Part shown: piece by piece, positions 57,790 through 60,925 of the stretch
Layout: each line of letters opens with the position of its first letter
Position numbering within the stretch: position 1 is the stretch's first letter
Origin: an uncultured Oscillospiraceae bacterium
Lineage (GTDB): Bacteria > Bacillota > Clostridia > Oscillospirales > Oscillospiraceae
Direction: 5' to 3'
DNA: 64,000 bases
Assembly (NCBI GenBank): GCA_947629795.1
Contig: CANRFC010000012.1
Location: 1-64,000, forward strand
Notes under the pieces: model-generated
What the model was told of the DNA's origin: nothing
Seen by the model: the letters and a program-made list of their open reading frames with translations, nothing else
The model's database searches: none
Position numbers and translations under genes: made by a program

Positions 57790-60267
57790 ATGGCGAAGGA
57801 CGACGAGAGCTTCAACGATGAATTTTCTCTGGAGGCCATCCTGGCCGAGTTCGCCACCAACCACACCCCGTCGGAGGAGCCGGCGTCCAAGGAGGGATCG
57901 GACTCTGCGGAGAGACCGAAGCCCAAGGGGGAGCCGACAACGGCACCGCTCCGGGAGGAGACGCCCTCCGCCCCGACTTCGCGAAGAGGGGAGACGCCCC
58001 CGACCCCTCCAAAGGGGGGGGAGGAGCCCGGGAAGGAGCCGCCCATCGGGGAGAAAATGCCTCCCACGCCGACCGCCCCGAAAGATGAGGTCCAAAAGAT
58101 GCCTGACGAGGCCGAAAGACCGCGGGTAGAGGTGAAAGAGCGGCGGGTAAAGCGCCCCAAAACCGCCCCTCAGAACGGCAAAAAAGCCCCTGTCAAGCCC
58201 AGAAATTGGGAGGAGGACACCATCCCCTTCCCGGTCCCGCCCCCGCCCCAGGAGCCCGAGACCCCCGGCTGGCGGGAGGATACCATCCCCTTCCCCCTCC
58301 GGCCCCGGCAGGACGCCGCCCCCACCGGCAAAAAGCCCCACCGGGAGGAGGACGACCCCGACGCCACCAAGGTGCTGGAGTTTGTCCCCAAGGGCGGAAA
58401 GCCCAGTGACGACGCGGCTTTGGAGGAGCGCAGCCCCCTGGCCGCGGGCCTGGACCGGCTGAAAAAGAAGGCCGACGAGTTCGCCGGCCACATGTACGAG
58501 GAAGAGGGCGTGGAGGACGATGAGAGGCTCCGCAAGGCGGAGAAGCTCATCCCCGGCGTGGACGAGGAGGAGGGGAGCCCGCCTCCCCGGCCTCCCAAGC
58601 GGCTGAAGCGGCCCGCCCCCGACCTCCACCCCGGCGAGCTGGCCAAGCGGTACGACAGGGGCCTGAAGTCCCTGCGTTTCCGCCGGGACGTGGTGCTCTT
58701 CCTCTTCGTCCTGGCCTTTTACCTCACCCTGGCGGAGCATCTGCCCCTGCCCATCCCCACCCCCCTGGCCCGGAACGCCGCCTGGCGGTGCTATGCCCTG
58801 GCGGCCCTTCAGGGCGGGGCCATGCTCCTGGGGGCCGACGCGGTGCTGCTGGGCCTGGTGCGGCCCTTCCAGTTCCGGGCGGGGATGGACACCATGATCG
58901 CCCTGTCCAACATCGCGGTGCTGGCCGACGCTCTCACCATCCCCGGGCTCACCGGGGGCATGGGGCGGCAGCCCTACTGCGCCATCGCCATCCTGGGCCT
59001 GGGGCTCACCCTCACCGGCCAGCAGCTAAAGCGTCGGGGCCAGCGGCTGGCCTGCAAGACCGCCGCCTCGGCGTCCCAGCCCTACCGGGTCACCCGGGAC
59101 GCGGGGGCCTGGAACGGCAAGGACACCTACGCCAAGTGGTCCGGGGCCCTCACCGGCTTTGGCAGCCAGATGCAGGGCGCCGACGGGGCCGAGCGCATCT
59201 TCAGCGCCTTCGTGCCCCTGCTTATGGGCCTCTGTGCCGTCTTCGCCGTCATCTCCTCCCTGGGCCGGGGACGGCCTCAGGATCTGCTGTGGAGCCTGGC
59301 GGCCATCTTTACCGCCGGGGCGTCCTTCTCGGCTACCCTTTGCTTCGGCCGGCCCTGGCAGCGGCTGTGCGCCCGGCTGTTCAAGTCCGGCGCTGCCCTG
59401 GCGGGGTGGGAGGGGGTCACCAACACCACCGGGGCCTCCAACATCCTGCTCTATGACGCCGACCTCTTCCCGCCGGGGGCGGTGAAGTTCAACGGCATCA
59501 AGATCATGGAGGGCTTTGCCGCCGACAAGGTCATCTCCTGCACCGCCACGGTGATCCGGGACGGGGGCAGCGAGCTGGAGAAGGTCTTCCACGACCTGCT
59601 GCGCAGCCAGGGCACCATCTACCGCAAGGGGGAGGGGGACCTGACCCCCTATGAGGGCGGGGGCCTGTCCGAGACCATCCGGGACGAGCTGATCTTGGTG
59701 GGGTCCTGGTCCTTCATGGAGCTGATGAAGGTCTCCCTGCCGGCGGGGCTCAACGTGAAAAACGCCGTGTTCTGCGCCATCGACGGGGAGCTGGCGGGCA
59801 TCTTCGCCCTCAACTACCACCTGCCCCAGGCGGTGCCCCAGGCTCTGGACAGCCTCATCCGTAACCACATCACCCCAGTGCTTTGTACCCGGGATTTCAA
59901 CATCATCCCCTCCATGCTCCGCTCCCGGTTCAAGCTGCCGGTGGACAAGCTGGAGTTCCCCTCCATCGAGCGCCGGCGGGAGCTCTCCGACGCCGGGCTG
60001 GAGCACGACCCCACTCTGGCCGCCGTGCTGTGCCGGGAGGGGGTGGCCCCCTACGCCGAGGCGGTGGTGGGAGGCAAGCGCCTGCGCGCCGCCGTGCGGC
60101 TCTCCGCCGTCCTGGCCTGCGCGGGCTCGGCGGTGGGGGCCCTGCTGGGGTTCTACCTCACCTTCGTGGCGGCCTACGAATCCCTGACCCCCACCAGCCT
60201 GCTGGTCTTCCTGCTGATGTGGCTGGTGCCCACCTTCCTCATCTCAGGGTGGGTGGATCGGTACTGA
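57790..60267 (+). CDS. P-type-ATPase-like membrane protein with broken catalytic site
   Basis: An 825-residue protein. Residues 1-295 are Pro/Glu/Lys-rich and disordered, with EDTIPFP repeated (about 141 and 163). Helices begin near 299 and the rest follows P1B-ATPase order: helix pairs, an actuator-like segment (about 400-445), SATLCFGRPW before the helix normally carrying CPC, then LFKSGAALAGWEGVTNTTGASNILLYDADLFPPGAVKFNG where the phosphorylation motif DKTGTLT reads DADLFPP (D556). The later GDx-like site is TRDFN (700-704). Two final helices end it. It should not hydrolyse ATP normally and may be a regulator or partner. Confidence 0.75.
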   Translation: MAKDDESFNDEFSLEAILAEFATNHTPSEEPASKEGSDSAERPKPKGEPTTAPLREETPSAPTSRRGETPPTPPKGGEEPGKEPPIGEKMPPTPTAPKDEVQKMPDEAERPRVEVKERRVKRPKTAPQNGKKAPVKPRNWEEDTIPFPVPPPPQEPETPGWREDTIPFPLRPRQDAAPTGKKPHREEDDPDATKVLEFVPKGGKPSDDAALEERSPLAAGLDRLKKKADEFAGHMYEEEGVEDDERLRKAEKLIPGVDEEEGSPPPRPPKRLKRPAPDLHPGELAKRYDRGLKSLRFRRDVVLFLFVLAFYLTLAEHLPLPIPTPLARNAAWRCYALAALQGGAMLLGADAVLLGLVRPFQFRAGMDTMIALSNIAVLADALTIPGLTGGMGRQPYCAIAILGLGLTLTGQQLKRRGQRLACKTAASASQPYRVTRDAGAWNGKDTYAKWSGALTGFGSQMQGADGAERIFSAFVPLLMGLCAVFAVISSLGRGRPQDLLWSLAAIFTAGASFSATLCFGRPWQRLCARLFKSGAALAGWEGVTNTTGASNILLYDADLFPPGAVKFNGIKIMEGFAADKVISCTATVIRDGGSELEKVFHDLLRSQGTIYRKGEGDLTPYEGGGLSETIRDELILVGSWSFMELMKVSLPAGLNVKNAVFCAIDGELAGIFALNYHLPQAVPQALDSLIRNHITPVLCTRDFNIIPSMLRSRFKLPVDKLEFPSIERRRELSDAGLEHDPTLAAVLCREGVAPYAEAVVGGKRLRAAVRLSAVLACAGSAVGALLGFYLTFVAAYESLTPTSLLVFLLMWLVPTFLISGWVDRY

Positions 60268-60301
60268 AAGACCGGAAAAAGGGACGACGACTCCGAAGAA
60301 A

Positions 60302-60342
60302 CAAAAACCCGCCCCGGGCTTGCTTGACAAACCGGGGGCGGG
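60302..60342 (-). terminator. Terminator of the small peptide mRNA
   Basis: Arms 60308-60317 and 60332-60342 (one bulged base) followed leftward by TTTTTGTTT (60299-60307). It ends transcription coming from the right; the antisense promoter is embedded in its loop and right arm. Confidence 0.75.
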
Positions 60343-60352
60343 CGGGTATAAT
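60324..60352 (+). promoter_or_regulatory. Consensus promoter for an antisense RNA
   Basis: Exact TTGACA (60324-60329), 17-base spacer, exact TATAAT (60347-60352), pointing into the 3' part of the small peptide mRNA. No gene on this strand follows for about 600 bases. Confidence 0.85.
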
Positions 60353-60358
60353 GGGAAC

Positions 60359-60453
60359 AGAAGGGAAGACCGGCTCAGTTGACGGTCAGCCCAAACGGAA
60401 GTAGGTATGAACCGTTAACCGCCTGGTGCCAGCCGGGCGGTTAACACGCTTTT
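60359..60453 (+). ncRNA. Candidate antitoxin antisense RNA
   Basis: Predicted from the consensus promoter to a hairpin (60414-60423 with 60436-60445) followed by CACGCTTTT. About 95 bases, no ORF. It is complementary to the 3' end of the small peptide mRNA, including its last codons. The 3' end is the least certain part. Confidence 0.6.
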
Positions 60454-60536
60454 GGGGTCATGTAGACCAGCAGCCAAAGAACTGCCAGAGAAATGACGGT
60501 GAAACGCAGGGCTTTCGCCCAGCGCCCGTTCCCCAT
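60441..60536 (-). CDS. 31-residue membrane peptide, candidate type I toxin
   Basis: ATG 60536 to TAA 60441. A basic start (MGNGRWAKALR), one hydrophobic helix (FTVISLAVLWLLVYM) and a TPKAC end. AAGGGGGTGAT lies 5 bases upstream, an excellent ribosome site, but it is paired in a hairpin with the DNA just before it. The mRNA ends can pair over 11 bases (60577-60587 with 60370-60380). Antisense RNA overlaps its 3' end. This is the architecture of hydrophobic type I toxins such as Fst or TxpA; the sequence itself is not a member I recognise. Confidence 0.7.
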   Translation of the reverse strand: MGNGRWAKALRFTVISLAVLWLLVYMTPKAC

Positions 60537-60543
60537 AGGCCAT

Positions 60544-60565
60544 CACCCCCTTTCTCAAGGGAGTG
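60544..60565 (-). promoter_or_regulatory. Hairpin masking the ribosome site
   Basis: On the leftward mRNA, CACTCCCTT (60557-60565) pairs with AAGGGGGTG (60544-60552), loop GAGA, nine pairs with one G-U, covering the ribosome site of the 31-residue peptide. Confidence 0.7.
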
Positions 60566-60612
60566 GCTAACCGCCAAACTGAGCCGGGACCTTCCGCCCC
60601 AAACCCAAGGGG

Positions 60613-60618
60613 ATCATA
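60613..60618 (-). promoter_or_regulatory. Extended -10 of the small peptide mRNA
   Basis: Leftward TGA-TATGAT (60613-60618); an overlapping second TATGAT is at 60618-60623. No convincing -35. Predicted mRNA start near 60606. Confidence 0.45.
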
Positions 60619-60652
60619 TCATATTTCCCCCAAAAGCGCAGGGGAACGGCTC

Positions 60653-60681
60653 TTGACATTTCTCCCGGGGAGTGATACACT
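60653..60681 (+). promoter_or_regulatory. Promoter of thrS
   Basis: TTGACA (60653-60658), 17-base spacer, TACACT (60676-60681). It is divergent from the small peptide promoter. Confidence 0.75.
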
Positions 60682-60687
60682 TCCCTT

Positions 60688-60925
60688 GTCAAAATGGCAC
60701 TGACGGAGAACGAACTGTCTGGCGGCGCTCAGAGAGGGATGGGGAGCTGAGAACATCCTGCGATGCGCGGACGGGGAGACCGCTCCCGAGCCGCCCGGGA
60801 TGACCGGGCCGGGCCCCTCCCGTTACAGAGGACACGAGCGACGGCATTTGCCGTAAGCAGGGTGGAACCGTGGGACATTGTACGTCTCACCCCTGGAAAA
60901 AACAGGGGTGAGGCGTTTTGTTTTA
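60688..60925 (+). promoter_or_regulatory. T-box riboswitch controlling thrS
   Basis: Leader with the T-box core AGGGTGGAACCG (60859-60870), a stem I region with a probable Thr specifier ACA near 60753-60755, and a terminator stem (60883-60895 with 60903-60915) followed by TTTTGTTTT. Uncharged tRNA-Thr would stabilise the antiterminator; the tRNA-Thr(TGT) in this window reads ACA. Confidence 0.93.

Follow-up and report, generated by a model that had tools for sequence, protein, structure and literature searches.

Next to thrS in an uncultured Oscillospiraceae bacterium lies a short stretch of DNA that raises the question of whether a small membrane peptide and the RNA opposite to it form a toxin and its antitoxin. 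The window, that is, the whole 64-kb stretch of DNA that was analysed, carries there on its minus strand a 31-codon ORF together with a ribosome-site hairpin, mRNA ends that can pair with each other and a terminator, and has an antisense promoter on the opposite strand. The initial annotation read these elements as a type I toxin-antitoxin locus. Comparison with related loci supports this reading, and the locus is, with high probability, a type I module that encodes a new putative toxin peptide. The comparison bears on the ORF, both promoters, the structures of both strands and the dispersal of the module, which are taken up in turn below.

Layout of the window copy and its site beside thrS

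The minus-strand elements begin with a probable promoter and a short hairpin in the leader; next come the 5' arm of the end pairing, the Shine-Dalgarno hairpin and the 31-codon ORF, and after these a hairpin across the stop codon, the 3' arm and the terminator (Table 1). A plus-strand promoter that matches the consensus at 12 of 12 positions is directed back through all of them, and it is one of three perfect matches to TTGACA-17-TATAAT in the 64 kb, both strands considered. The ORF with its hydrophobic helix, the 9-bp ribosome-site hairpin and the leftward terminator with its U-run (TTTTTG after the hairpin), all listed by the initial annotation, are present on reading the sequence. The 11-bp complementarity between the mRNA ends is likewise exact, but it is merely the outer half of a 22-bp end pairing, because the inner arms (60565-60575 and 60381-60391) pair as well. 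The antisense promoter had been described as perfect and located inside the terminator; the match is indeed 12/12 and the -35 lies within the terminator hairpin, but the -10 lies outside it. No -35 can be recognised in the toxin promoter of the window copy, which amounts at best to an extended -10 and by its sequence looks weak. The fold of the minus-strand RNA is well below that of shuffled sequence in energy (z -7.55).

Table 1. Features of the module and its surroundings, with positions in the window
Feature	Position	Strand	Basis
Putative toxin ORF, 31 codons, MGNGRWAKALRFTVISLAVLWLLVYMTPKAC	60441..60536	-	Sequence; same-length peptide in 59 distinct ORFs
Hairpin masking the Shine-Dalgarno, CACTCCCTT-GAGA-AAGGGGGTG, 9 bp	60544..60565	-	Sequence, alignment pairs, wobbles
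End-to-end pairing, outer 5' arm, CCGGCTCAGTT	60577..60587	-	Sequence; compensatory changes in relatives
End-to-end pairing, outer 3' arm, AACTGAGCCGG	60370..60380	-	Sequence; alignment
End-to-end pairing, inner 5' arm, GGCGGTTAGCC	60565..60575	-	Helix 99.3% paired in 26 sequences
End-to-end pairing, inner 3' arm, GGCTGACCGTC	60381..60391	-	Sequence; alignment
Start-codon helix, 5' side UGGGG; partner 60453-60457 (CCCCA)	60531..60535	-	98% paired in relatives (helix 5)
Hairpin within the ORF, includes GGGCGAAAGCCC (60509-60520)	60504..60525	-	Codon 7/codon 9 pairing
Hairpin within the membrane-helix codons	60467..60488	-	Helix 8: CG13/GC7/AU2/UA2
Hairpin spanning the stop codon, apparently selected on the antisense strand	60414..60445	+	Wobbles; stem pairs GC15/AU11, AU19/GC7
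Predicted toxin mRNA terminator	60302..60342	-	Hairpin up to -29.8 kcal/mol, then TTTTTG
Predicted antisense (antitoxin) promoter TTGACA-17-TATAAT, 12/12; predicted start about 60359	60324..60352	+	Sequence, family
Probable toxin promoter, extended -10 TGATATGAT (TGA-TATGAT)	60613..60621	-	Sequence
Insert extent relative to congeners (4-16 nt there)	60268..60650	.	Congener comparison

In congeners, only 4-16 nt separate the upstream 825-aa gene from the thrS promoter, with the T-box next, while the gap from gene to T-box in the window is 423 nt. The short arrangement occurs in at least five sampled congeners, and since the site is empty in them, the module is regarded as an insert between the upstream gene and thrS, as had been proposed. 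Judged against the congeners, about 380 bp is added in the window, the less simple alternative being its loss from all other congeners. The upstream gene (57790-60267, +) has 65-71% identity to its congener counterparts over the C-terminal half; its designation as a 'pseudo-ATPase' could not be confirmed, as it has no Pfam match at 1e-4. Apart from the T-box leader of thrS (60690-60897, +), which scores 79.2 bits, below the gathering score of 93, the comparison with Rfam gave no match to a known RNA family here. This leader has its own promoter, TTGACA-17-TACACT, at 60653-60681. A terminator scan of the plus strand from the antisense promoter to the T-box (60353-60690) found none, and the antisense RNA may therefore read into the thrS T-box leader.

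The peptide and its dispersal in Oscillospirales

The peptide is composed of a cationic N-terminus, one hydrophobic helix and a YxxPKAC end. Fifty-nine distinct ORFs share its length of 31 aa; there are also variants between 26 and 33 aa long, and throughout them the reading frame is kept between the ribosome site and the stop-codon hairpin. Codons 2-12 have a pN/pS ratio of 0.43 and the hydrophobic stretch, where hydrophobic residues are swapped for one another, has one of 0.81; these values understate selection on the protein because RNA structure depresses the synonymous rates. Searches of Pfam, NCBIfam and PHROGs with the peptide gave nothing significant. The window peptide has no match to PF16935 (Hol_Tox) at E up to 10, Hol_Tox is absent from the families matched by 77 relatives of the peptide at E up to 1, and the PXXXG(C) motif (PMC7472228) is absent from both the window peptide and the consensus.

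Searching 60 relatives at the DNA level revealed additional loci of this type in several genomes, frequently two in the same genome; there were shorter matches as well. Where the match is strong, it encodes a peptide of the form MGNGRxAKALRF-helix-YISPKAC behind the same ribosome site. With a peptide profile, members were found in 48 of 401 genomes of Oscillospiraceae, covering 31 of 106 genera, many of them carrying several copies and tandem pairs, and clear matches were also found in other families of Oscillospirales. An exact DNA pattern occurs on 32 genome contigs, among them contigs of isolates of Oscillibacter, Flavonifractor, Pseudoflavonifractor, Acutalibacter and Anaeromassilibacillus, and on 10 viral contigs. 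One viral contig has a copy of the module between endolysin and tail genes, and another has a copy beside tail genes; plasmids and named phages gave no match at the DNA level. In total, about 90 non-identical loci, often in tandem, were collected from Oscillospirales chromosomes and from phage or prophage contigs. The conservation of the ORF and its ribosome site, on which the initial annotation had made its reading depend, is thereby found in many related genomes.

Small single-helix proteins are often regulators, and the locus could accordingly be a regulated gene for a harmless membrane protein, such as a regulator of a membrane complex, under antisense-RNA control and with no toxin-antitoxin pair. 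The lack of a match between the peptide and any known toxin family would agree with this, but the tandem arrays, the patchy presence (48 of 401 genomes) and the dispersal to unrelated sites and phages do not, and the RNA frame, in one case even an array, is held in common with Hol_Tox peptides. A selfish toxin module fits these observations better, and the harmless protein is considered an unlikely explanation.

Evidence for two opposing RNAs

When 26 cores are aligned, 96.0% of the cells in the predicted mRNA structure are paired. Two-sided changes were counted at 21 pairs and 86 cells, against 12.7 pairs and 29.9 cells (sd 4.4) in shuffles, of which 0 of 500 reached the observed value, and against 6-14 cells in slid-partner controls. 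Among the conserved helices are two hairpins inside the ORF and a helix in which the start codon pairs with the last part of the ORF, while pairs of the Shine-Dalgarno hairpin vary on both sides in the alignment (CG17/UA9, UA13/CG9). Base 1 of codon 7 and base 2 of codon 9 are combined in the 59 ORFs as G-C in 24, A-T in 21, G-T in 11 and A-C in 0; residues 7 and 9 (Ala/Ala, Thr/Val, etc.) co-vary because the mRNA pairing demands matching bases.

The direction of G-U wobbles was counted on a strand-neutral alignment of the arms, in which both kinds of wobble are treated alike. Wobbles that pair on the mRNA strand outnumber those that pair on the antisense strand by 169 to 55 in the end pairing and by 69 to 9 in the Shine-Dalgarno hairpin, while the stop-codon hairpin has 1 on the mRNA strand and 85 on the antisense strand; since the loci share ancestry, the wobble and covariation cells are non-independent, and the weight rests on the contrast between helices within the same loci. 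The bias of the stop-codon hairpin comes mainly from three stem positions that form a C.A mismatch in the sense RNA and a G-U pair in the antisense RNA. Because wobble direction assigns the helices to opposite strands, the comparative evidence indicates that toxin mRNA and antisense RNA are both real, and the selection of one hairpin on the antisense strand is what would be expected if both RNAs exist. An alternative hairpin, in which the 3' arm of the stop-codon hairpin pairs with the bases that follow, has a stem score of 0.92, modestly above the 0.60 of a tail-swap null, and its sequence types are strongly matched (GGCTAAC/TTAG 28:1, GGTCAAC/GTTGA 24:3).

These data also bear on two other explanations of the locus. 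The initial annotation named a structured plus-strand RNA as the finding that would speak against it, and such an RNA, acting for example on the downstream thrS with the ORF as a by-product, could draw on the better promoter of the plus strand, its direction towards the thrS T-box, before which no terminator was found, and the selection of the stop-codon hairpin on that strand. However, most of the structure is kept with minus-strand wobbles. The toxin strand is the one that conserves the pairing of the ends, the hairpin at the ribosome site and the helices within the ORF, and its consensus fold has a lower energy than that of the complementary strand (-76.4 vs -62.1 kcal/mol). The copies elsewhere, where their neighbours were examined, adjoin other genes, and the peptide is conserved, which together make a plus-strand product extremely improbable. 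Alternatively, the module may be a miniature transposable element or repeat with an incidental ORF and with pairing ends that are simply inverted repeats at its termini. In keeping with this, the copies are dispersed, repeats in inverted orientation lie close to their ends and the site is empty in congeners. However, the repeats lie inside the two promoters, their G-U pairs are strand-biased as counted above, compensatory changes keep the pairing, conservation extends to the ORF with its length and ribosome site, and no target duplication was recognised. A transposable element is therefore very improbable, although less so than the plus-strand product.

The promoters point to the type I module as well. 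Among 91 non-identical loci, the antisense promoter matches at 12/12 in 74 and at 11/12 in 15, at a near-fixed distance from the stop codon; this count is somewhat flattered because the promoter was required for inclusion, with a cut-off of just 9/12. The toxin promoter of the same set matches at 12/12 in 20 and at 11/12 in 40, and most relatives have TTGACA/TATAAT-like toxin promoters, unlike the window copy. The antisense promoter is thus closer to the consensus than the toxin promoter, as expected if the antitoxin must exceed the toxin. Of 75 loci, 47 have a toxin-strand terminator at or just past the antisense promoter and 46 have an antisense-strand terminator at the toxin promoter, compared with 8 of 120 control segments, suggesting that both RNAs are able to span the module.

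A simple scan of the 75 loci found no canonical internal antisense terminator. A possible one, consisting of the stop-codon hairpin and a U-run opposite the KAC codons, is suggested by the retention of AAAAGC-GTTRACC in loci whose ORF is shortened, but a few unpaired bases separate the hairpin stem from the U-run and 0 of 75 loci passed the scan. In three loci (L028, L043 and L056), the ORF ends early, yet AAAAGC-GTTRACCGCC, which encodes KAC elsewhere, is kept ahead of the hairpin, suggesting that the motif has a role in the antisense RNA.

If the module is transcribed in this organism as predicted, the minus strand would give an mRNA of about 300 nt for the 31-aa single-helix membrane peptide. 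The full-length mRNA would be translationally inert, with its ends paired over 22 bp, its Shine-Dalgarno held in the 9-bp hairpin and its start codon paired with the end of the ORF. The stronger opposite promoter would produce an antisense RNA that overlaps either the 3' part of the mRNA or the whole of it. This RNA may pair with the mRNA, competing with the mRNA 5' end for the 3' arm, and the duplex may be marked for RNase III, as with RatA and SR4. Upon loss of the antisense RNA or trimming of the mRNA 3' end, the peptide would be made and the membrane damaged. The likely use is the maintenance of the DNA that carries the module, because its copies occupy prophages and dispersed insertions.

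Relation to known systems and the shared RNA frame

The locus has the general marks of type I systems: a short hydrophobic single-helix ORF with a ribosome site, an antisense promoter of its own on the opposite strand, whose RNA is predicted from sequence to overlap the toxin mRNA, and a conserved mRNA structure that would block translation. The txpA/RatA and bsrG/SR4 systems of Bacillus subtilis (TxpA-BsrG or Hol_Tox, PF16935) similarly have a short hydrophobic peptide, a convergent antisense RNA and a frequent prophage location, but the window peptide is not a Hol_Tox by profile. Their antisense RNAs overlap the 3' end of the toxin only and lead to RNase III decay (PMC3531473, PMC8309996), whereas the promoters here bracket the whole module. 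Fst/par (pAD1 RNA I/RNA II) shares convergent promoters, a 5' stem-loop at the Shine-Dalgarno and a sequestered 5' end (PMC7472228); it differs in its PXXXG motif, in its direct repeats DRa/DRb, in place of which inverted repeats stand at the module ends here, and in its shared internal bidirectional terminator; the simple scan of 75 loci found no such internal terminator, and terminators lie at the outer ends. AapA/IsoA of Helicobacter and hok/Sok have the 5'-3' end pairing that inactivates the full-length mRNA, local Shine-Dalgarno hairpins and multiple chromosomal copies (PMC6733600). They encode other peptides in another phylum, and the Shine-Dalgarno hairpin here, unlike their transient one, is predicted to belong to the most stable fold.

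Knowledge of type I systems in Clostridia is limited, and the validated modules are confined to Clostridioides difficile (review, PMC6563280). These modules, for instance CD2517.1-RCd8, are also composed of convergent overlapping genes with prophage copies (PMC6563280), but their toxins are 34-59 aa long with lysine-rich ends and are set apart from the window peptide by this description. Many type I toxins are reported to have a charged C-terminal tail (PMC6563280), which the window peptide does not have. By analogy, the module probably works like Fst/par, AapA, hok, txpA/RatA and bsrG/SR4, and the tests run place it outside both Hol_Tox and Fst. Among type I systems it appears to represent a new family of toxin, with an RNA frame that seems common to several toxins. 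A search of the open-access literature found no description of such Oscillospiraceae modules.

The frame, that is, both promoters, the CGGTTAGCC...GGCTAACCG ends and the Shine-Dalgarno hairpin, also surrounds Hol_Tox genes of Oscillospirales. In seven of eight Hol_Tox-profile loci, the antisense promoter (10-12/12) lies 84-93 nt past the stop codon, and most such loci found in Oscillospiraceae have the same ends and hairpin. One array of four modules (L140, (-) 735-1908) is composed of two Hol_Tox peptides, scoring 32.2 and 34.7 bits (Pfam cut-off 23.3), and two KAM-ending peptides like that of the window. This common frame and the resemblance to known systems suggest that the window peptide is toxic.

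Other peptides occur in the same frame. L009 (1537 and 1910) and L142 (1539, -) have quite different peptides of 22-23 aa, MEYIAAIILILILMYLLKDKTK, MEYLSVIIIILILAIAYNQSVKK and MELVFLVISLVVLWKIFSDIKK. A class-wide search with the Shine-Dalgarno hairpin pattern gave one further locus with another peptide, L142, which is outside Oscillospirales. The frame, made up of two convergent promoters, pairing ends, the Shine-Dalgarno hairpin and an antisense-strand hairpin, may be an Oscillospirales chassis for several unrelated toxin peptides, one of them new, in which the fold shapes the peptide and the stop-codon hairpin acts in the antisense RNA; the chances for and against this reading are about even.

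The family provides a large number of loci for comparison from gut commensals, some of them cultured, such as Oscillibacter, Flavonifractor and Pseudoflavonifractor, and in this set both RNAs can be deduced from sequence alone. The direction of G-U wobbles offers a general test for which strand of an overlapping sense/antisense pair owns a structure. If the chassis reading is true, the toxin peptides would be interchangeable components of a single regulatory RNA, and this would go some way to explaining the unrelated look of type I toxins across genomes.
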